NCBI GenBank assembly: GCA_029204225.1 | Contig: CM055104.1 | Location: 38,680,527-38,744,526 of the forward strand | Origin: Diphasiastrum complanatum | Lineage: Eukaryota; Streptophyta; Lycopodiopsida; Lycopodiales; Lycopodiaceae | Reading direction: 5' to 3' | DNA length: 64,000 nt | Program-made: the position numbers and the translations under genes | Shown: positions 2,267 through 19,600 of the stretch, piece after piece | Layout of the letters: every line of letters starts with the position of its first letter | How positions within the stretch are numbered: the first letter of the stretch is position 1 | The notes under the pieces: generated by a model | Database searches by the model: none | Seen by the model: only the letters and a program-made list of their open reading frames with translations | Told to the model about the DNA's origin: nothing

Positions 2267-3978
2267 CTATTCATCATCAGATCTTGTATCAGATTCTATG
2301 GTAGTATTGTCATGAAGAAATTCTTTGCTAGCGTATGCATCTAATAGATGTGCATTATCCTTATTTCCACTAAGCTCAATATAAGTGGAATACAATGAAT
2401 ACTGGAAGCTCCTTAAAGGAACATTCCCATCAGTAAAGCCTAAAATGTTCAAAACATAAGATCTTTTGACAAAAATGATCTTATTTGTCTTAACAAATTT
2501 ATGTCCTCCTAGATAAAATGATAAAGCTTTAACTTTCATTATAAGACTCTCCCCGACTGGGCTCAGCTTGGAATGAGCAATACAGATCTCACTCTTCAAG
2601 AAATGCCGAAGATAGTGGCCCAGTCCACTGTCCCTCTGGAACAATGATGCATGTTGTCTGAAACCACCTCGTCTCACAGCAAAAGCATCTATTATGAGAG
2701 CATGCTGCAATAGGAAATATGTTAGCAAAAATACATTCAGTGATTGAAAACATTCAAATGTAAGGAGGATTAAACACTTGCACATTCTTCATCATCAACA
2801 GCAACCAGATCAGGATGATCAATATAATGACCACGTATTGAAGTGGAATCATCAGTGAAATGTATTAATGATGGACGAGGGAAGCCCATATGGGATTGAA
2901 ATGCCGTGAATTCCTCATCGGATGGTCTGCCTCGCCCATCCTCAGCTATATTTGATAAAGTCTTCTTCAGGCATTCTTCACCGGTCATAAGACCCTCCTC
3001 ATCATCAAAATCAATACCAGCAACAAGGTCATCTGTCTCAAAATCTACAAAGTCGGAGAATTCGGAAATTGTGCCGGATAATAAACATAGAACCTCGTCC
3101 TCACGATAGTCAAAAAATTTACATAAATCAGCAATAGTAAAATATACATCGTCATTAATATAATATACAAGCAAATTGAAAAGACATTTCGAATCTTTCA
3201 TAGATTTGGATTCATCATCAGATGTATTTTGGCCAATGAAAAAATCTCGGAGAACATCAGTATTTAGATCAATGAAGTCACTTTCTTTATCAGGAGTGTC
3301 GATAAGAAAGTGACTGATATCCTTAATGGCTGAATTAACAGAGGAGGGTGCAAAAGGAGGGTCAGCAACAGGAACTTCATCATCATCTGGGATCTGAACT
3401 AAAAGAAAAAGTACGAAACCACTATGATATTCAACCAATCGACATTTCTTGTTGCAATACGGACACATAGAACTACTTTTGAAAAGATCAAACAATTTGG
3501 TGAACATTCTATCCAATCTATGTCTAAAAGCTGGGAAAAAATGAACAAGATCAGTATAATGCATGTACTGGAGTTGACCTATGGAGAAAACAGGCTTGCT
3601 AAGTATATCTCTGAATCTGACATAATGTTTATAAAATACGTTAGAATTTGGTTGTGCAGTCCTAAAAACATGTAGATATGGCCTGAATAGGCTGTGGAAG
3701 TAGTCCAGATTTTCAGTAATCCCAAATTCACTCAGAAATGAACTCAAGCCTGATTCTCGTGAGGATGATGAGGAAGAGGCATGGCAGTAGCGTGAATATC
3801 GCACTTGTGCGAGCGGGAGAACTGAACCAAAACTAGCTATCAAAATGGCGCAGAAGATGGGTATGTACGGCAGACAGATACAGAATATTGCACTTGTGCG
3901 CGAGTAGGTATACTTGCAAGCAAACAGACAACAATGAGCGCGCACAAAAGCGATATGTCGCGAATTTTGAGAACGCAA
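2267..3978 (-). CDS. Unrecognised two-exon gene of the same mobile element
   Basis: Reading leftward, one long open frame ends in a 71-bp intron (2775-2705) with a GT donor and an attgcag acceptor. Joining after the residues ECAS restores a phase-0 frame to 2267, giving about 547 codons with no internal stop. The start is uncertain: the open frame begins at a TTG, and the first 60 or so codons overlap promoter-like palindromic repeats, so the true start may be further in. The protein has a MCPYCNKKC zinc-binding-like cluster (near 3460), a long acidic stretch and no family I recognise. It converges with the transposase gene (134 bp between stops) and diverges from the histone-protease gene, so it is probably a third gene of that element. 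Unlike its two neighbours it is not visibly broken. Confidence 0.5.
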
Positions 3979-4610
3979 AAGGTAAAAAATTATTCGGCTT
4001 CCGTGCCATTTATACTAAATTTTTGCACATGTGGTCAACGGACTTATGACACGTGTCTACTTTCAATTCGACAACAGGCGCAGGCACGTGTGAGATGACA
4101 CCTGCACACGTGTGAAATGACACCTAGACACGTGTCGCACGTTCATTCGATTGCTCATAAACACATGTCGCTCTCGCATTCGATCGTACAAATCCCACAC
4201 GTGTAGTGTGACAGGGTGACACATGTCGCTCTCGCATTTGTCCGTACAACTCCCACACATGTGACAAGACGTTCTTTCGCACGTGCGAACCCCGATATAA
4301 AATCACAAATTTTGATAAATTTTTTTCACTTTTTTTTTCGCTCTGCATATCACATTTGTGCGTGCCCTTCACAATCAAAATTCCTCCTACTACCTTCCAT
4401 GCGCACAAGTCCGATACGTCTGCCTACGTGTCACCCCATATTGCACTTGTGCGTCTTTCCTAAAATCTAATCGTTCTCTCTGATATTCAGCTCGCATAGG
4501 TCCGATATACCGTACATTCTGTCCGTACATAGCGGTCCTCTGCGAGTTCTTTATCATCCCTTCTTTCTCATCCTAACCTTCACGCACAAGTCCGCTATCA
4601 CATAGTTCAC
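3790..4610. promoter_or_regulatory. Divergent promoter region dense in ACGT and CACTTGTG palindromes
   Basis: This stretch between two divergent genes holds at least six CACGTG-type cores (for example near 4032, 4086, 4107, 4128, 4199 and 4280), several ACATGT variants, and repeated CACTTGTGCG / CGCACAAG motifs (near 3802, 3892, 4398, 4443 and 4583). In plants CACGTG is the G-box bound by bZIP and bHLH factors; that these sites work here is inference. The motif density is far above that of the flanking DNA. Confidence 0.5.
4161..4261. repeat. 58-bp direct repeat in the divergent promoter
   Basis: Two copies start with ACACATGTCGCTCTCGCAT at 4161 and 4219, continue through GTACAA and TCCCACAC, and end in an ACGTGT or ACATGT palindrome. 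The repeat duplicates a palindrome cluster rather than a coding segment. Confidence 0.75.
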
Positions 4611-4614
4611 GCCC

Positions 4615-6107
4615 ATGGATAGGAGAAAGCAGACAAGGAGAGACTTCTTCTCTCCTGGCTCATCCTCATCTCCTGCGGTTGCCATCACACCACCTGCTAG
4701 ACCTAGAACGCGCAACCGAAACATGTGGCTCTCTGAGATGCGCAAGTATCAGAGGTCAACAGCTCCGTTGATCCCAAGAGCTCCATTCTACCGTGATGTC
4801 CAAAACATAACAAGAAATAATCTTGGACAGCACGTTAAATTCACACCGAGTGCTCTTTAGTGCCTTCAGGAGGCTGCTGAAGATTATATTAGCCTTTTTT
4901 TTTAGGATTCTTTTTGCTTGCCATCCATACCAAGAGGGTTACCATAATGCCCAAGGATTTTCAGCATCTGATGAGAATGAGAGATAGGTATTGTAGGTTA
5001 CATGTATCTCAGCCTGCTGCTCCTAGACCAACTCCTGTAGATAGGACTCATCTTCCTGCGAAGCGTCCTAGGAAGCAGACAGCCCCCAAGCGTGCTCCTT
5101 AGAAAGTGAAGCCTATCCTAGAATCCATTGTAGATAATGATGTTGATGATAATGTTGTAAATATAGCTACCTCTGTTTTGGATACTCCTATAATTGCTGT
5201 AGATACTACACATCCACCTCCTCCTCCTCCTCCCAATTTCTATACATATATAGATTCGGATGATTATCTTAGATTTGAGAAAGACATGTCGGATGCTATA
5301 GATACAATTGGTACTCCTTTTTGTTTTAGACTAGAAGAACTTGATTTTGGTATTAATTTTAGAGTTCTAGATTGCCTGGATCTCAAAGACAGACGAGCTT
5401 CTATCAGTGATCCCGTGATAGAGTCCGGACTAACACTCTTGCAATTTGACATTGCAAGAGATTCAGCAAACGAGTTGCTGGTGCTGAGTAACTTTCTGCT
5501 CCAGGCCTTCAAGGAGAATAATGACACATTGTCACATTGTCTGACAAGTGGATTCACACCAGCAACAAAGTATTTGGTCATTTCTTATCATACCACGTAA
5601 GATATATTAAGTGCTTCTTCTTGTTTTATGCATTAACGTTGACATTTTCAATTTAAATAGTTCTCAGAATTGCCGCTAAAGTACTTTCAATCTTATTTTG
5701 CAGTGACCACTGGAGTTTAAACCTGATCTCTATTAAGAGATCTATAAATAATATTATTAAATGTTCTTGTTTCAAGATGAATTCGGCGAGAAATACGCAT
5801 AAGGATGTAGATATATTCATTCCATACCTAAGTAAATATATTCCTACAAACGTTCCCCATTCCGTGGACTGGCAGATCGTCAGCTTGGAGGTAAACTCTG
5901 TCTTTCTTAATAGCATTTTGAAATCAGTATTCTAATGAAATATTTTCAATCTAATTCATTCTGTTTCATAATTGATTTCTTGTGTGCTGAATTATTTTGC
6001 AGTCACCCCAGCAAAATGATTCATTCAGCTGTGGGTGGTACACATTGTACAATGCCAAGCTGTTTTTTGAGTGGTCCATCCTTCAAAAAGATGTTGATAT
6101 TTCTAAG
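4615..6107 (+). pseudogene. Centromeric-histone-H3-like domain fused to a C48/Ulp1-type cysteine protease
   Basis: The ATG at 4615 sits in GCCCATGGAT. Exons are 4615-5596, 5704-5890 and 6003-6107; the GT-AG introns are 107 and 112 bp and the phases match. The N-terminus has RRKQTRR, like the H3 tail. A histone fold follows: MRKYQRST, PLIPRAPFYRDV, CLQEAAEDY, AIHTKRVTIMPKDF. LQEAAEDY and KDF, plus one extra residue in loop 1, favour centromeric H3 over canonical H3. After a basic, proline-rich linker come protease motifs: DHWSLNLIS (His at 5708) and PQQNDSFSCGW (Cys at 6030), 70 residues apart as in Ulp1-type enzymes. The expected Asp about 17 residues after the His reads Lys/Cys. Breaks are TAG at 4858, TAG at 4903 with a 1-nt shift in a T run, and TAG at 5100. 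A donor follows 6107, but no next exon was found. Confidence 0.75.
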
Positions 6108-6130
6108 GTAATAAATTCTGTGTGCCTTAA

Positions 6131-6965
6131 ATGTTAAGGAAATGACTCTGGCAAAGTGTGGAGCTACCCCAATATTAAGGAAATGAGATTTTATGACACT
6201 GTCGTCTTTTTCGCAAAAAGCCGACACTGTCACCTTTTTGCAACACTGTCGCATGTGACAGTTTTAGTTCATTTCTACAGAGTGACAGTTTTAGTTCATT
6301 TATGCAGACAGATCGTTTACGGCCAATTTTCACCAATTTTTGAGAAGGAACCGGATGAATGCCAGCGGACACCAGCCAACTGGCAATCGCATTTGACGAC
6401 CTAATTACTTAGTATAAATCAACTGTTCATACATCTCTTTTCAAGATCTGAAGCAACGAATCAACATTGTGAGTTGTGAAGGATTTGAGTGTTATTACAC
6501 GATGCTTCCTGTGCTCTTATCAAGCATATCATTCATAATCAGAAAGTATTGTTGTTAGCTCTCTATCAAGCTTTCAAGCTTGAACTCTCTTGAGCATTCT
6601 AGCTTAGTCTTTTAAGATTTATTTTAGAGTTGCTATTGCGCTACTGCTTATCAGCAGAGCTGCTTATTATCAGACTTATGCTCAGTTACTCAGAGACAAC
6701 TTAGAGTGCCCGGTTTCTATCCGCTATTGTTTTCCACTCATTAGCATCTGATTTTGTTTTTCTGAATCAATGCTATCTTCTTATTGCGTTCAGTATATAT
6801 CAGAATGCATGCATCTCTGTATTGCTTTTGTAACTGATAGAAATTGTTTGAGAATTCAATACTTTATGTTTGGCTACATAATCACTTAGTATCTAGCAAT
6901 TTCAAAGTTAGTTGCTAAAGATTGAACGTGATGTTCATCACTACTGCTTTGTTTAATTTTTTATA
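6131..6965. other. Inserted AT-rich segment, possibly LTR-derived
   Basis: The sequence changes character about 20 bp after the last protease exon and has no coding potential. It holds a directly repeated GTGACAGTTTTAGTTCATTT (near 6256 and 6281) and a TATA-like AGTATAAAT near 6411 followed by a long leader-like stretch. This could be the U3-R-U5 part of an LTR, but I found no primer-binding site or second copy, so the class is open. Confidence 0.3.
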
Positions 6966-6972
6966 GACGTAG

Positions 6973-7311
6973 TCATGCATTGGGAGGAGTAAGTTTCTGG
7001 ATTACATTATCTATCCTATTTTTGACATCACATGGCTTGATCTCTTTAGAAAGTGACTTTGGTAAGCCAATTGCTTTTGCATATTTGACCATAGAAAGCA
7101 TGAATTTGAAATTGGGATGTCCCAATCTCCTATGCCATAACTCCTCCTTAGAAATATTATTCATCAAAGCAACATCACAAGAATTTGCACTTTCATGTGG
7201 ATTCAACTTGAAAATGCCACCATATCTAGATCCATGTGCAAGTATCTCATCACCTTTCTTAATAGCACAAGTATTGATATTGAAAATTACATCAAGGCCA
7301 TTATCAAACAA
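6973..7311 (-). pseudogene. Ty1/copia GAG-pre-integrase fragment
   Basis: A 112-codon open stretch reads leftward with the typical copia order: a segment with FNINTCAIKKG, then ELWHRRLGHPNFK (the LWHxRLGH signature of the domain between protease and integrase). No integrase follows. Its upstream edge touches the LTR that begins near 7317, so the copia below may have inserted into this older fragment. Confidence 0.8.
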
Positions 7312-7316
7312 ATTTT

Positions 7317-8447
<1,131 letters not shown>

Positions 8448-8479
8448 CGCCCCCTTAAGCTTACTACTACGAATCTGAA

Positions 8480-9600
8480 TTACAAGTGAGATTTATCATA
8501 TCTACTAAAGTAGAATGTTTATCTCTTGACAATGGCTTTGTCAAAATATCAGCCAACATATTGTCGATATGACAATAACTTAGTACAATTTTATTCTGAA
8601 CTTTCTCTATAGGAAAAATTGAACTTCTATATGCTTAGTTCTATTATGAGTTCGTGGGTTTAGAGATGAGCTATGCAGCTCTAATTGTCGCACTGGAGTA
8701 TTGTTGGACCAATCTGTGGGCAGATCCTGTAGCAACCTTCTGAGCCAAACTATCTCCTTCATTGCTGATGTAGCTGCAACCTATTCAGATTCTGTAGAGG
8801 AGAGTGAAATTCATTTCTGCTTTATGATGTTTCCTCCTGTAAGGAAACAAATGTAACTTGATGTGGATTTTCTGATGTCCATGTCTCCTGCCCAATCTGA
8901 ATCTGAATAAGTGATTAGCGAAAGTGCACTTTCTATATTGCCATTATAGCTTAAAGCATAGTAGATCATAGAATACATTAAAGATCCTATGACAAACTGA
9001 TAAGGAAATCTACACATTTCTTGTTGATCTGCTTGAGTTCTGGGACACATGTCTTTAGACAGCTTGGATCCTGGATCCATGGGTGTGGCTATCGGTTTGC
9101 AGTCCTCCATGCTATATCTGTGAAGTACATTGGTTAGATAGGACTCTTGGCTTATAATAATCCTTCTGCTTGCGCGATCTATGTTGATCTCCATACCAAG
9201 TAGGTAATGAACTGGGTCTAAATCAGTCATCTCAAATTTTGATGAAAGCAAATATTTGGTTTCATGTAGCAACTGATTCAAATTGTTGATAATTAATGAA
9301 TCATCAACATATAATGCTATTATAACATAGCTTGACTCTTTACGTTTGAGATATACATTTGAGTCCGCGGAACAAGGAGTAAAATAGTGCTGCAACAAGA
9401 ACATTGATTCTTTCATACCAGGTCCTAGGAGCTTGATATAGTGCCTTATGTAATTTACATACCAAATGCTCTTGGCCTTGAAGGACGTAACCTTCTTGTT
9501 GATAAATGAATATTTCTTCTTGTATGTATATCTGAAGTAATGTTGTTTGTGTTGGAATTCGATGCTCAGCCTCAAATCCATTCATTAATGAGCATCCTGA
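8480..9600 (-). pseudogene. Ty1/copia reverse transcriptase and RNase H remnant
   Basis: Reading leftward from about 9600, the frame shows the copia RT core with LYVDD (the catalytic YxDD box, near 9310). PIATPMDPGSK and YSDSDWAGD (RNase H, near 8890) follow, then a shifted continuation with HIDNMLADILTKPLSRD just before the polypurine tract. Stops and frameshifts split the reading frame near 8811 and 9585. Gag, protease and integrase are missing: the element is cut at about 9600, close to the next LTR at 9787. Confidence 0.85.
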
Positions 9601-9786
9601 AAGCTATACAAAACCCAGAAAAAGAAGGCTAGATTTTTTTAGCAGAAGATCGAAAAATTCAAGATCGAATTTTTTAGAATTTTTCGATACCAAATCGACT
9701 CAAAAAATTCTATATTTTTTGAGTCAATGTATATTTTTCGAGTCATTGTACATTTTTTTTCGATACTTGTAAATCATGTTTGATAC

Positions 9787-10173
9787 TGTCGGTCTAAAAT
9801 CCGACCCAACGACTTTGCGTCAATAGTTCGCCTACTTTGTACATTCAAAGACGGTTGTCATAAATGAGGCACATAGCATTTAATGATAATTAGATATTTA
9901 ACAAGAAGAAGATATTTTGTAGTAGACCTATAACTGTGGATAGGAAGTTAATTAAGGACTAATCGTCATCATAATTTTTGGTTTTCTATAGCTAGCGTTA
10001 TCACGCTCAACAAACTGAAGTTATTGCTTCAAGTAATTGTACTAATTGTTGATATTAACCAGAGTACAATTTCAATCCTACTACTATATCGTTCATTTAC
10101 GCATTTGGATGAATCATTCATCTTGATTATTCTACTGCTAACTATGGCGCTTCCGATCCTACGATTTCTGACA
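9787..10173 (+). mobile_element. 5' LTR of a plus-strand copia element
   Basis: The 387-bp segment starts with TGTC and ends with GACA, matching short inverted ends, and is followed at once by TGGTATCAGAGC. No 3' LTR partner was found downstream, and a target-site duplication could not be tested. Confidence 0.6.
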
Positions 10174-10271
10174 TGGTATCAGAGCCTCTGTTGTAATCAG
10201 ACCTCCTCTAATCCGATATCAGTAAATCATCTTTGATAAACCATCAATTTTTGACATGGTATCAGAGTGGG
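10174..10271 (+). other. Primer-binding site region, duplicated
   Basis: TGGTATCAGAGC, complementary to the 3' end of plant initiator methionine tRNA, occurs at 10174. The same motif, again preceded by GACA, occurs near 10257, about 84 bp further on. The second copy suggests a local duplication or an alternative LTR edge. Confidence 0.7.
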
Positions 10272-10398
10272 TAGTTCAGTAATCTGCATTTCATTGCGGA
10301 TTATCAAGTCTTGTGTCTATCAAGACGGTGTTCTAGCAAGCGCACAACCAACAGTATTCTGAAATCGTTGTTTCTACCTACGATATCACTCAACTAGA

Positions 10399-12860
10399 AT
10401 GGATTCATCATCTAGTTCTTCTCTTATCGACAAACTCGATGGGAGTAACTACCATTTTTGGAAATTCAAAATGGAGGTCATACTACTAGCCAAAGAACTG
10501 TGGGACATCGTTGATGGCACAGAACGCAAACTTGAAGGTGATGCACCCATTATCACCAAATGAAAACCAAAAGATGACAAGGCTTTTGCCACGATCACTC
10601 TCAATAATAGGGACACACAATTCAGCCACATACATGCTGTTCAGACTGCTAAAAATGCATGGGACATCCTAGCAACTCTCTACGATATCAGGGATACCAC
10701 GTCCAAATTACATTTGAGGAAGAAATTCTTCTCCCTGAGAATGTTTGAAGCAGAAAGTGTTTCAAGTCATCTCAACAATTTTCAAAATCTTATGGAGTAG
10801 ATGACTGCAACTGGCTCAGTCGTAAAAGATATTGATGTTGTTATGACTCTATTATTGAGTCTTCCTGATTCCTATGAAAATTGGGTCCTAGCAATGTCGA
10901 CCCAGGAGCACCTCACTCTTTCAAGAGTAATTTCGATGCTTCAACAAGAGGAAGTCAGAAGATCTGTAATCTGCTCAAGCTCAGGGTCGGATACTCAAGC
11001 TATGTATTCGAAAAGAAATCAGAAGTTTAGATCAAACAGATCTACACAATCAAAATATCCTGACAAAAGCAGTCTAGGTCGAATTTTCACTCAGGGTCAA
11101 ATTTTGGCTCAGGGTCGAATTCTGGTCCAGGATCGAATTCAGATTCTTTATCATTCCAATCAAAGCAAAACCTACTCTGCAAATACTTTAAGAGAACTAG
11201 CCATCTTATCAGGTTTTGTAGAATTTTAAAATTCAACAATGAGAAGAAAATGCAGTTCCAACAACAAGCAAACTCTACTTCAGCCAGTTTTTCGATCCAA
11301 TAACAAGATGAAGATGAAGCAACCTTCTTAACCAAGGTCGGAGAACATCAGGATATCGATTTTTGGTACCTAGACTTGGGAGCAACTCAGCATATGACTC
11401 ACCACAAGGACTGGTTCAAAGATTACAAAGCATACACCCACTCTCAAATTGTGCAGCTTGGAGACAACTTAACTCATTCTATTGAGGGTGAAGGAATAGT
11501 CAGGATCGAATTTCAGAGAGGCGAAGTCAAGTTGTTGACCAACGTTCTCCACATTCCAAATCTGACCAAAAATCTGCTCTCAGTTAGCAGAATCACAGAT
11601 TTGGGTCGGAGGGTAGAATTTGACACAAACGGCTGCACCATTTTTGACAAGTCCCAAAAGGCTCTAGCTTTCGGGAGGAGTGGCAACCTTTACAAATTCA
11701 GCCACTACAATTCTTCTAATTGTCAAACTCTTTATACATCCACTTCTGAATCAGTTGATATGCTTTGGAATTTTATATTAGGCCACCTCAATTCCAATTG
11801 TATTCAACAAGTGTCAAAATAGAATTTAGTACAAGATCTGCCCACAATTAGCAAATTCAATACTCCATGTAAAAGCTGTATAATCAGCAAGCATGCTAGA
11901 AGTCCTTCCATTTTCGATACAGTCCATACTTCTAGAAATTTGCTAGATCTTGTATACATGGACATTTGTCGCCCTATGCAGACCATTTCCACAAGGGGAG
12001 CTGTCTATTTACTGACTTTTTCTGATGACTTCTCTCGAAAGACTGCAACTTATTTTTTGAAGGAAAAATCTGATATCTTCAAGTTTTTCAAGTAGTTCAA
12101 AACATCAGTAGAAAATTTGACCCAAAGAAGAATCAAAGCTCTATGTTCTGATGGAGGGGGAGTATTTATCTCCAGTGAGTTCAAAGCTTTCTACAAGGCC
12201 AACAGAATACACCTACAACAATCCACAACCAACTACTTACCTCAGTCCAATGGTGGAGCTCAAAGGAAGATTCAAACACTCATTGCAAGTGCAAAGAGCA
12301 TGATGGCCCATGCATCTCTTCCAAAGAAATTCTAGGCAGAAGTTGTTACTACAGCAGTCTATCTACAAAACCGATCCATTACAATGGCCGTGAATGGTCA
12401 GGTGTGGACATGATCAAAGCCATCACTCAAAAATATTAGAGTGTTTGGATGCAAAGCTTTCAATCAGATCTCTGTTGATCTATAGAAAAATCTAACCCAA
12501 GTATCGAACAGTCAAAACCCGATTCAGTGATCGAACAATGGTAGATCAATTATTATTAGCTACTCTCCAAATCACAAGGCATACAAGCTCTACAACCTAG
12601 ACACTCAGAAAGCATTCACAAACAGAGATGTCATCTTTTTGGAAGACCAATTTTTCGACCACAAAGAGAAAGCTACAGCAAATTTCGACCCAAGTATCGA
12701 ATAGCAAAATTCCGATTCAAGGGTCGAACAGTCAAAAATCGATACTAGCTCAAAAATTGAGTCAAAATCTCAACGGATCAAATCACATCAGAGGATCAAA
12801 TTTCAACTCAGAAGATCAAATCGATCCAGACAGCCTCCATCTAGATCTATGGATGATCTA
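10399..12860 (+). pseudogene. Ty1/copia gag, protease and integrase polyprotein (broken)
   Basis: Gag starts at ATG 10399 (DKLDGSNYHFWKFKMEV, the copia UBN2-type domain). The protease active site reads DLGATQHM near 11370 where DSGA is expected. The pre-integrase block is degraded (LWNFILGHLN). The integrase core has two acidic blocks (YMDIC near 11955, CSDGGG near 12150), but the third position reads GGAQRKI, so the catalytic Glu is lost. A hinge with VFGCKAF and NHKAYKLYN runs to about 12650. Stops lie near 10561, 10798, 11820, 12093 and 12333. Reverse transcriptase and RNase H are absent. It belongs with the LTR at 9787-10173. Confidence 0.85.
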
Positions 12861-16613: not shown

Positions 16614-19600
16614 GCAAGTCATCATTTTACGACCAAATTGATCACTCACATACAATTCAACATTCAATCAAACTTATTTTTAGATTTTTGGAAACATGCT
16701 ATTATTTATTGTAGGTTGTCTTTTGTGTTAGAAGATTTATAGCTGGTTGCATCATTCAAAAATGCAAACAAGCTTGAGCATAAGCTCTATTATAAGGTTT
16801 GCTTTGTGGACATGGGTTAAATTACCGGTGAGTTAAGCCAGATTATTTGTTATAGCACTATGACTTCTTATGATGTCAGGTGCATATTGGATTTTCTACA
16901 TTCTTTAATAAAAAAATATCATTCTTTATCAGTTTCCACATCATAATTGTTTTTGAGACAATTTGTCAATTAGTAGATCATCAATTTCACCAACATTAGC
17001 AATTGCATGTTGCATATTATTATCTATATTGCAAATGCTCCATATTGGGAAGTTTTCTAAGAAATTGCCGATATGCACAATTTTTGAGCAAATGTGTGAT
17101 TCGAATATTTTCTATGGTGGAATGAGAACAATGCTTGCAAGATCTATTTACAGTAGGGTGCATTGAACAAAAATCATGAAGTAATATATGTTTTTATTAT
17201 TGTTGGACCTATGTTGTTCTGTATATGGAAAGTTTACAATGTATTTGTTGCTTTATTTTGTAAGGTCTGTTAATCCTATGTTCTTTGCTGATGTTGTTGT
17301 ATTAGGTCACACCTTAAATACAATGGAACCAATTCAATTAAGCCAAGTTCTAGGGGAACCTGCTCAATCTAGAAAGTTCCATAGTGTTGCATGATCTTTT
17401 TTAAGCTTTTTGCTTTCAAGAGTGTGGTTATAAGGATTAACCAAGTTTAAACCTGTGTGAAATATGAGGGTACGCTAATAGTTTTCAACTATGATTTACA
17501 TTTGAGAAACTTTAGATTAGCTAAGATCAAATGTACATACCCAGGTGCAATCTGTGTGTCCCATATTCTTTTCTTTTCTGACATGTACCTTCAGCCCGGA
17601 AGTTGAATGTAAGGTTAAAAAAAAGGTAAATTCTTTTTTCATGATAGGGAAGGTCCGCCTCGTCGCCATCCCACCATTGAAAAGTCCTTCTGCCGCAGGC
17701 TACCGCCCTCAGCAAAAAGCCCTTCCCCATTGGAATGACCTTGGAGGGCAACCTCCCCTCTCTCTTATATGTTGGTTTTGAGTCATAGATTTGAAAGTTA
17801 TCCACTTCCAAAGCCTCCAGATCATGCACCAATTGCAATTGAGGGTTGGTGCTGATTGGTATTAGAACCCGATTCTGTTCAATTTGAATGCTTTAGATTT
17901 TTGTTGTCTCTAACATGTTATAAGATGTTAAATGTGGCACTAACACTCTAAGAGTAGATTATTGGTCCATAAAAGCGTTGTACTTGCAAATGGGATAAGA
18001 GGCTTCAACTTTTGAAATTGAAAAAGCTAATGATGCTAAGCTTGCTTCATACGACATCTTATTGAAATTCAAGAGCAATAAAAATGGTTAGATTAACTCA
18101 ATATTCCATAAAAAAGTTAACATAAAATATCAGAGAATCTCGACGACAAGTGGGATCAGATAGGATATAGACAATCTCAAGGAAGTATTGATGTTCAAGC
18201 AGATAATGAAATTCGACTTAAATCTACAACATCTTCATCCAATTATCTTAGCACTAGTATGGCATGTAGTTGTCTAATTGCTTTCTATCTCTGAGTTATT
18301 GTAGCACTTCATTTAGCACCCTTCTAACTATAGTTTGAAAATTTATTTTACGTCTCACTCCAAATGTTGTTATTTTGAATAGGGTAAGATAAACTTCATG
18401 AGTAAGGTGGCTAGGTGAAAATAGGTTGTTCATCTCTTTACTCAATTTTGACATTTATAAGAGAGCAAAGTACTTTTGGTTTTCCTCAAGCATATTGCAT
18501 ATGTATCATGATGTTATTTATAAACTTTCGTGATAGATTTTTGACCGGCAGCTAATACTTTGAAATCCATTATCCTACCTTTCCAAGAGCTTCTATATAT
18601 GTTATCTGATCTTTTTCTTTTCCGGAAAGAGCCTTTTGAAGAAGGATGCATCAAAATCCATTGATATTTATGAAATATTCTTGGTATCCATTAATCTTCT
18701 ACATTTTTTTCATTGCAAATATTGATAGCATCAATGGTTCCTCTTTGTCTTTGATTATGTGTCGCCATTAGTCCAAAATATGTCTACAGAAACTGAGAAC
18801 GGAGAGAATGAAGAGAATGAGAGATATATCTTAGAATGATGAGAAGTTCCTAAACTACAAGGATTAGTTAATGTAGTTTACGACTATTGACGTCAAATCA
18901 ACGTCGAGTGTACAAATACGGGCAGCAAAAGAGTATTCGGACAGTAACTGTGTTCCAATCACAGTCATTTGTTCTGCCCGGTGGGATTTTTGAAAATCAC
19001 GAAAATTTGGCCGAGAAAGGCAAAAACAAATTTCGTCTGTCAACCACTGTTGCAGTTCGTCACAGATGGACACCATTGATTGGGACACATAAGCGTTTAA
19101 AGCGTGTGAACTAAAAAAAAACATATTGACAAAGGGCCCATTTTGAGTTCTAATATCCCCTAATGATTCTAATCCAAGCCCTTCGTACAAAATTTAATGA
19201 TTTCCATTTAGAGAGGTGTCCTTCACATTATTCATGTGAGCTCTTTTTAGGCTTTTGATACATTCACAAGGGGCTTTGGATTCACTTTAGTTGATTAAAA
19301 TAATCTTATAGAGCACGTACATAGGTTTTTACTCTTATGGAAATGTTTTAGATCAGGTCACACTAAGCTAAACAAGATTAATCACACTTATTCCTTGTCC
19401 TCAATATGAGCTCTCATTCAATGCAAAACTCTACAAGATTATTTCTTTTCTTCAAGATCTATCTAACTCTTTCTCAGGAGTAAATAAAACTTCTATAAGC
19501 CTTAGCTAATGGCAAAAATGGCCTTCAATGACTCCAAAAGTATAGATCCAAGTTGTCCTCAAATAGATTGGCAAAAGGAATCTTGTCCTCTTGCCTAACA

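Follow-up and report, generated by a model that had tools for sequence, protein, structure and literature searches.

In the RAG system, chromatin is read by the PHD finger of RAG2, which binds histone H3 trimethylated at lysine 4 (H3K4me3). In plants, some of the VANDAL and KAONASHI elements of Arabidopsis (Mutator-like elements, MULEs, without terminal inverted repeats, TIRs, and with the accessory genes VANC and KIU) carry a Ulp1 domain, according to a review (PMC13317346). VANC proteins are reported to relieve the silencing of their own VANDAL family (PMC13317346, PMC5735166, PMC10398659). DNA transposons with epigenetic enzymes as cargo (TET/JBP in fungi, SET in oomycetes) are described in PMC12730594. 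The same paper groups EnSpm/CACTA, Mirage, Chapaev, Transib, Plavaka, ESTA, and Lanisha in a CMCT clade, with C(2)C and H(3–4)H motifs between the second D and the last E of the transposase as criterion (PMC12730594). Here, we describe a gene at positions 4615–6107 of a stretch of 64,000 nucleotides (the window) from contig C13 of the lycophyte Diphasiastrum complanatum, in which an H3-like half (tail, αN, and histone fold) is followed by a C48/Ulp1-like half with HW and Q..C motifs. Such a fusion of an H3 fold with a C48/Ulp1-type domain recurs as a conserved gene in an abundant DNA transposon with TIRs.

A gene joining an H3 fold to a C48/Ulp1 domain

The window copy consists of the following parts.

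4615–5596, + strand: exon 1, with the H3-like tail, the H3 fold, a linker, and the C48 N-lobe; its frame is interrupted by TAG codons and a frameshift
4621–4641, + strand: RRKQTRR of the tail, in exon 1
about 4714–4997, + strand: H3 fold, in exon 1
4864–4887, + strand: LQEAAEDY, in exon 1
4935–4961, + strand: RVTIMPKDF, in exon 1
5597–5703 and 5891–6002, + strand: introns with GT..AG borders and matching phases
5704–5890, + strand: exon 2, C48 domain including the active-site His (DHW, starting at 5705)
6003–6107, + strand: exon 3, C48 domain including the active-site Cys (QNDSFSCGWY)
6012–6035, + strand: QNDSFSCG, in exon 3
6108: an additional GT directly after exon 3

The original prediction, made from the letters of the window, saw here one reading in three exons. 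Its motifs (RRKQTRR, LQEAAEDY, KDF, DHW, and QNDSFSCG) are all located, between 4621 and 6035, and the exons do join in matching phase with GT..AG borders. The frame itself is broken: exon 1 has in-frame TAG codons at 4858 and 4903, closely followed by a frameshift of one base, and another TAG at 5100, so that the window holds a decayed copy. Both parts nevertheless score above the Pfam cut-offs in the profile searches that had been proposed as a check, the H3 part (stops read as X) against PF00125 at 3.6e-23 and the Ulp1 part (exons joined) against PF02902 at 1.2e-7; neither is a chance resemblance. The in-frame stops of exon 1 are all TAG; an alternative genetic code was considered and rejected, as codon 82 is CAG and codon 97 is GAA or GAG in most other copies. 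Another copy, L055 on contig C1059, has stops in common with the window copy and resembles it at 98% over the Ulp1 N-lobe (perhaps a segmental duplicate or an alternate haplotype).

Intact relatives occur in the same genome (1.74 Gb searched). First-look candidates for PF00125 numbered 6,325, and 150 of them were scored; among the rows listed, 13 are canonical-like H3 (at least 163.7 bits) and the remaining ones reach at most 109.5 bits, many of them within long open frames. Twenty 10-kb loci and 15 shorter ones, of about 2 kb, were extracted. Four copies (L032, L056, L057, and L067) have no stop through the joined exons 1–3, and all four pass both Pfam cut-offs. Against PF00125, their E-values are 1e-25, 4.1e-26, 8.6e-27, and 8.4e-28 (90.8–97.5 bits, cut-off 26.4; profile positions 24 or 27 to 122 of 122), and against PF02902 they lie between 2.5e-9 and 6.2e-9 (36.4–37.7 bits, cut-off 20.7; at most positions 81–192 of 217). 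Intact relatives thus carry both domains in one frame of one mobile-element gene, as had been predicted, and the prediction does not fail on the point by which it was to be judged. A host H3 pseudogene adjoining an unrelated protease fragment is ruled out, because both parts recur together, on the same strand, across copies (137 H3 places and 58 Ulp1 rows, part of those listed, were used). The 137 H3 places are spread over all contigs C1–C23.

The transposon, its subfamilies, and its ends

In 20 loci compared, one common set of four genes is found (transposase, gene B, H3 gene, and gene X), in two main subfamilies, S1 and S2. The S1 loci are L023, L025, L032, L033, L037, L038, and L039, plus the window up to 6121. 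Their order is transposase (+, 6 of 7 loci), gene B (−, 5 of 7), H3–Ulp1 (+, 7 of 7), and gene X (−, 6 of 7). In S2 (11 loci), gene X (+, 10 of 11) is followed by the H3 gene (+, 11 of 11), gene B (−, 9 of 11), and the transposase (−, 6 of 11). The H3 protein of S2 starts with MARTKQTAR, continues with a long Q/P-rich low-complexity stretch, and has the histone fold as its last part; over their 10 kb, the S2 loci gave no Ulp1 match. Further H3 genes are carried by L036 and L040. The H3 domains of S1, S2, and L036 share only 44%–47% identity, and that of L040 is 67% identical to S2. In L036 (in the orientation with H3 on the plus strand), two different H3-type genes lie within 3 kb, at about 5017–5409 and 7062–7913: one has gene B nearby and the other is decayed, with an ARAKQTTRA tail and an S1-like KDF-type end.

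The other parts of the element in the window are as follows.

1–2133, + strand: 3′ part of the transposase gene, its N-terminus lying left of the window; broken by a stop at 614–616
713–730, 1082–1102, and 1924–1941: transposase motifs VLKLDE, ASDLK, and QGMEK
1154–1165 and 1265–1282: C-x2-C (CLYC) and H-x4-H (HVCTLH) of the transposase
2267–4014, − strand: gene B, present in both main subfamilies, with one CPYC motif at 3448–3465
6121: end of the similarity to the element, with LTR (long terminal repeat)-like sequence next (judged by eye)

The window transposase pieces are 75%–97% identical to S1 copies. Gene B matches no Pfam family above cut-off. Gene X and the right TIR, both present in L032, were not found 3′ of 6121 in the window. 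An eye suspicion that gene X holds a BAH domain is not claimed (no Pfam match, no PDB profile match, and a model with a predicted local distance difference test score, pLDDT, of 47). At 18523–18753 (−) lies a remnant of exon 1 of gene X that comes from a different lineage of the element (45% to S1, 30% to S2); no further piece of this gene turned up in the window. Past the element, Copia-type retroelement frames extend on both strands over about 6130–12100 (by eye), with a long CT repeat near 7780–7923.

The ends are clearest in L032, with a perfect TIR of 35 bp (100% at both ends) that begins CATTAGAGG and has 5′-CA..TG-3′ termini. Genome-wide, the TIR has 968 + 1,019 = 1,987 matches with at most two mismatches (these are ends and not elements, and they include non-autonomous copies and remnants), and the reversed control has none. 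One of seven TIR end pairs has mirror-image flanks. On contig C1, the density of matches to the S1 TIR at about 65.1–66.7 and 95.5–99.9 Mb is several times that on the rest of the contig.

The transposase resembles those of the RAG1/Transib–CACTA (CMCT) kind. Its homologue P0003 gives a fold match to RAG1/Transib (VIA-align rows below RAG1/Transib being taken as background). Among 35 homologues, D411 is nearly invariant and D508 invariant, C528 and C531 are nearly invariant, and H586 and H591 invariant; the last Glu of the DDE set (QGMEK/QGMER) falls in a low-confidence stretch and is assigned by eye only. A profile of these 35 sequences retrieved no RAG1 or Transib PDB chain up to E 10, no Pfam transposase family matches the transposase, and no relative was found in viral contigs.

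Constraint, fern relatives, and the centromeric label

Selection was estimated as the ratio of nonsynonymous to synonymous change (omega) from pooled Nei–Gojobori counts over 22 S1 and 11 S2 copies (L059, the same as L058, was dropped). In S1, omega is 0.38 (0.18–0.81) in the tail, 0.28 (0.21–0.39) in the H3 fold, 0.71 (0.48–1.11) in the linker, and 0.28 (0.20–0.39) in the Ulp1 N-lobe. In S2, it is 0.35 (0.19–0.64) in the H3 fold and 0.47 (0.32–0.69) in the middle part. Since decay after insertion drives omega toward 1, the low values suggest real constraint on both domains. At the sequence level, the H3 fold and the Ulp1 N-lobe thus look to be under purifying selection, which appears weaker in the linker. 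The proportion of synonymous differences (pS) in S1 is higher in the H3 fold (0.28) than in the neighboring linker and Ulp1 region (0.17).

Related proteins occur in ferns. The related protein P0059, used as query, gives 11 rows (itself included), of which eight differ widely; among its relatives are KP509_07G005800 of Ceratopteris richardii (279 amino acids) and GOP47_0017738 of Adiantum capillus-veneris (P0074, 511 amino acids). P0074 matches PF00125 at 2.2e-23 and has a subthreshold C48 match (0.013), with a gene model apparently devoid of the HW exon. Its alignment with the protein of L032 is a single collinear block spanning both domains (26%, 406 columns, 2e-27), the score coming mostly from H3. 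In hhalign, S1 exon 1 and the fern-type group align in the H3 part alone, so that the two-domain match in ferns depends on P0074. The two top-scoring plant matches of one search, in Actinidia and Nymphaea, are tandem ordinary H3 gene models and were set aside.

These data bear on three other explanations. A neutral passenger, that is a host H3–Ulp1 sequence captured by the element and copied without use, is quite unlikely. Gene capture is common among plant transposons (PMC13317346), and one stop is common to several copies; against it, both domains are constrained and the linker little, the present omega counts for the H3 fold already lean below 1, H3 genes occur in the three diverged lineages of S1, S2, and L036, and the fern protein P0074 is collinear. 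We give still less credence to an old host fusion gene of seed-free plants, captured once or more by elements, of which the fern proteins would be the host version. The annotated proteins of Adiantum and Ceratopteris, for which no transposon context was seen, would agree with it. However, all seven S1 loci of 10 kb contain at least one other element gene, the wide differences among eight of the 11 rows would fit mobile elements, and a transposase relative (P0048) is annotated in Adiantum nelumboides. The third explanation is a histone mimic or decoy, in which the H3 tail (with K4 kept) and the fold would occupy readers, demethylases, or chaperones outside nucleosomes. M-A-R-T-K is invariant at the start of all ten fern-type rows, K4 is kept in the ten S2 copies with a readable tail, and in S2 a long low-complexity stretch separates tail and fold. 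Yet in S1 the tail is degenerate (DRRKQTRR) and the fold conserved, and a decoy by the tail alone needs no such constraint on the fold; we consider this role unlikely.

The original prediction called the H3 domain centromeric. Identity of the S1 fold is 52% with host H3, 48%, 50%, and 51% with three plant CENH3s, and 44% with human CENP-A (the plant CENH3 and CENP-A sequences, and the CENH3 rows of the trees, are provisional). Among the PDB matches of the H3 domain, the best 60 of 176 are all ordinary H3. The H3 trees are weakly supported, and the approximately unbiased (AU) test rejects neither the grouping with the provisional CENH3 rows (p 0.485) nor that with host H3 (p 0.238). With near-equal identities and such trees, the centromeric label is a resemblance and not a result. 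The element H3 shares with histone H3 and CENH3 the PF00125 fold, H3-type signatures, and an H3-like tail; it differs in being about 50% identical to either and in its context, with C48 joined on in S1 and in Adiantum P0074, and with a long low-complexity stretch ahead of the fold in S2. The extra residue of loop 1 noted in the prediction is confirmed for S1 by alignment with host H3; some fern-type rows have up to eight extra residues and S2 none.

We consider it very unlikely that the H3 domain mimics CENH3 and directs the element to insert, or to persist, in centromeric chromatin. The loop 1 residue, LLIPRAPF, LQEAAEDY, and KDF do look CENH3-like (against the provisional rows), and TIRs cluster on C1 at about 65–67 Mb and 95–100 Mb. 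On the other side, the domain is no nearer to CENH3 than to H3, the 137 H3 places lie on all of C1–C23, and two clusters on one contig, with neither control element nor centromere map, are no proof.

A proposed chromatin factor of the element and the known systems

With both parts apparently kept by selection, an element acting on host chromatin is suggested. We put at about 50% the probability that the H3–Ulp1 protein is a chromatin factor encoded by the element, anti-silencing or preparing or targeting chromatin. The H3 fold would pair with host H4 and would enter nucleosomes, or compete for nucleosomes or for H3 chaperones; the C48 domain may bind, or weakly cleave, SUMO on nearby proteins. 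Silencing would be relieved, or chromatin made usable by the transposase, in each case to the benefit of the element.

Several observations weigh against this account. The chromatin role is one that we infer from sequence. Most copies retain the His and Cys of C48, but the catalytic Asp is not conserved (the yeast Ulp1 Asp aligns with Lys or beside Cys/Gly) and the Cys is also lost in L058, L059, and L068; protease activity is thus doubtful, and the domain more probably binds or acts weakly than works as a normal SUMO protease. In the S2 tail (29 codons), omega exceeds 1 (2.47, 1.14–11.63) on few changes. The omega values include decayed copies, and of the 22 S1 copies, 14 come from loci that were for the most part picked for long open frames. 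A TAG at codon 97 is common to five of 23 S1 copies (in the window copy too, out of register), so that elements whose H3 is interrupted may have multiplied, perhaps with help in trans; this codon directly follows a T run resembling a splice acceptor. Flanking duplications are mostly missing, with a 3-bp TCA at one of seven end pairs and none at five. The fern data show no link between H3 and transposase.

Few eukaryotic genes are as tightly guarded as those of the core histones. If the chromatin role is true, a transposon family whose conserved H3 occurs in three or more diverged lineages, one of which has about two thousand TIR ends, would hold a direct tool in the conflict over silencing, and new histone variants could arise from its H3. 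It becomes a testable question whether a selfish element changes chromatin by supplying nucleosomes. For annotation, this would be a hazard, as some of the "histone H3" genes counted in seed-free plants may belong to transposons. A bolder proposal, which we hold to be unlikely, is that a class of RAG1-like plant transposons specifies its own chromatin: element H3, whether or not a SUMO-directed domain goes with it, would be built into nucleosomes on element DNA and would mark it for transcription and for the transposase, as a selfish counterpart of RAG2–H3K4me3 retained from before the split between the host lineage and ferns.

No histone-carrying transposon is named in the titles and abstract beginnings covered (Repbase and subscription papers lying outside their reach), and "histone" occurs 0 times in the main text of a review from 2026 on how plant transposons capture genes (PMC13317346). 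With the CMCT clade, the element shares the C(2)C and H(4)H motifs that follow the second D, 5′-CA..TG-3′ ends, and the RAG1/Transib-like fold of a homologue; it differs in carrying H3 and in matching no Pfam transposase family. Of the target-site duplication of 2–5 bp expected in the clade, the flanks show the TCA at one of seven pairs. The nearest named lineage is Lanisha (Repbase Reports 2020), to which the element may belong. The likeness to RAG1/RAG2 and ProtoRAG lies in the transposase fold; here, in contrast, the element supplies the histone, there is no sequence-level RAG1 match, and Pfam reports no PHD finger for the element genes scanned. With the TET/JBP and SET transposons, the element has in common an epigenetic tool as cargo, but its cargo is a nucleosome component and not an enzyme. 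VANDAL and KAONASHI are likewise plant DNA transposons with an accessory gene, and with Ulp1 in some; they are MULEs without TIRs and without a reported histone, whereas this element has a RAG1/Transib-like transposase and 35-bp TIRs. By analogy, VANC/KIU offers the nearest working model, in which the tool would here be a component of the nucleosome.
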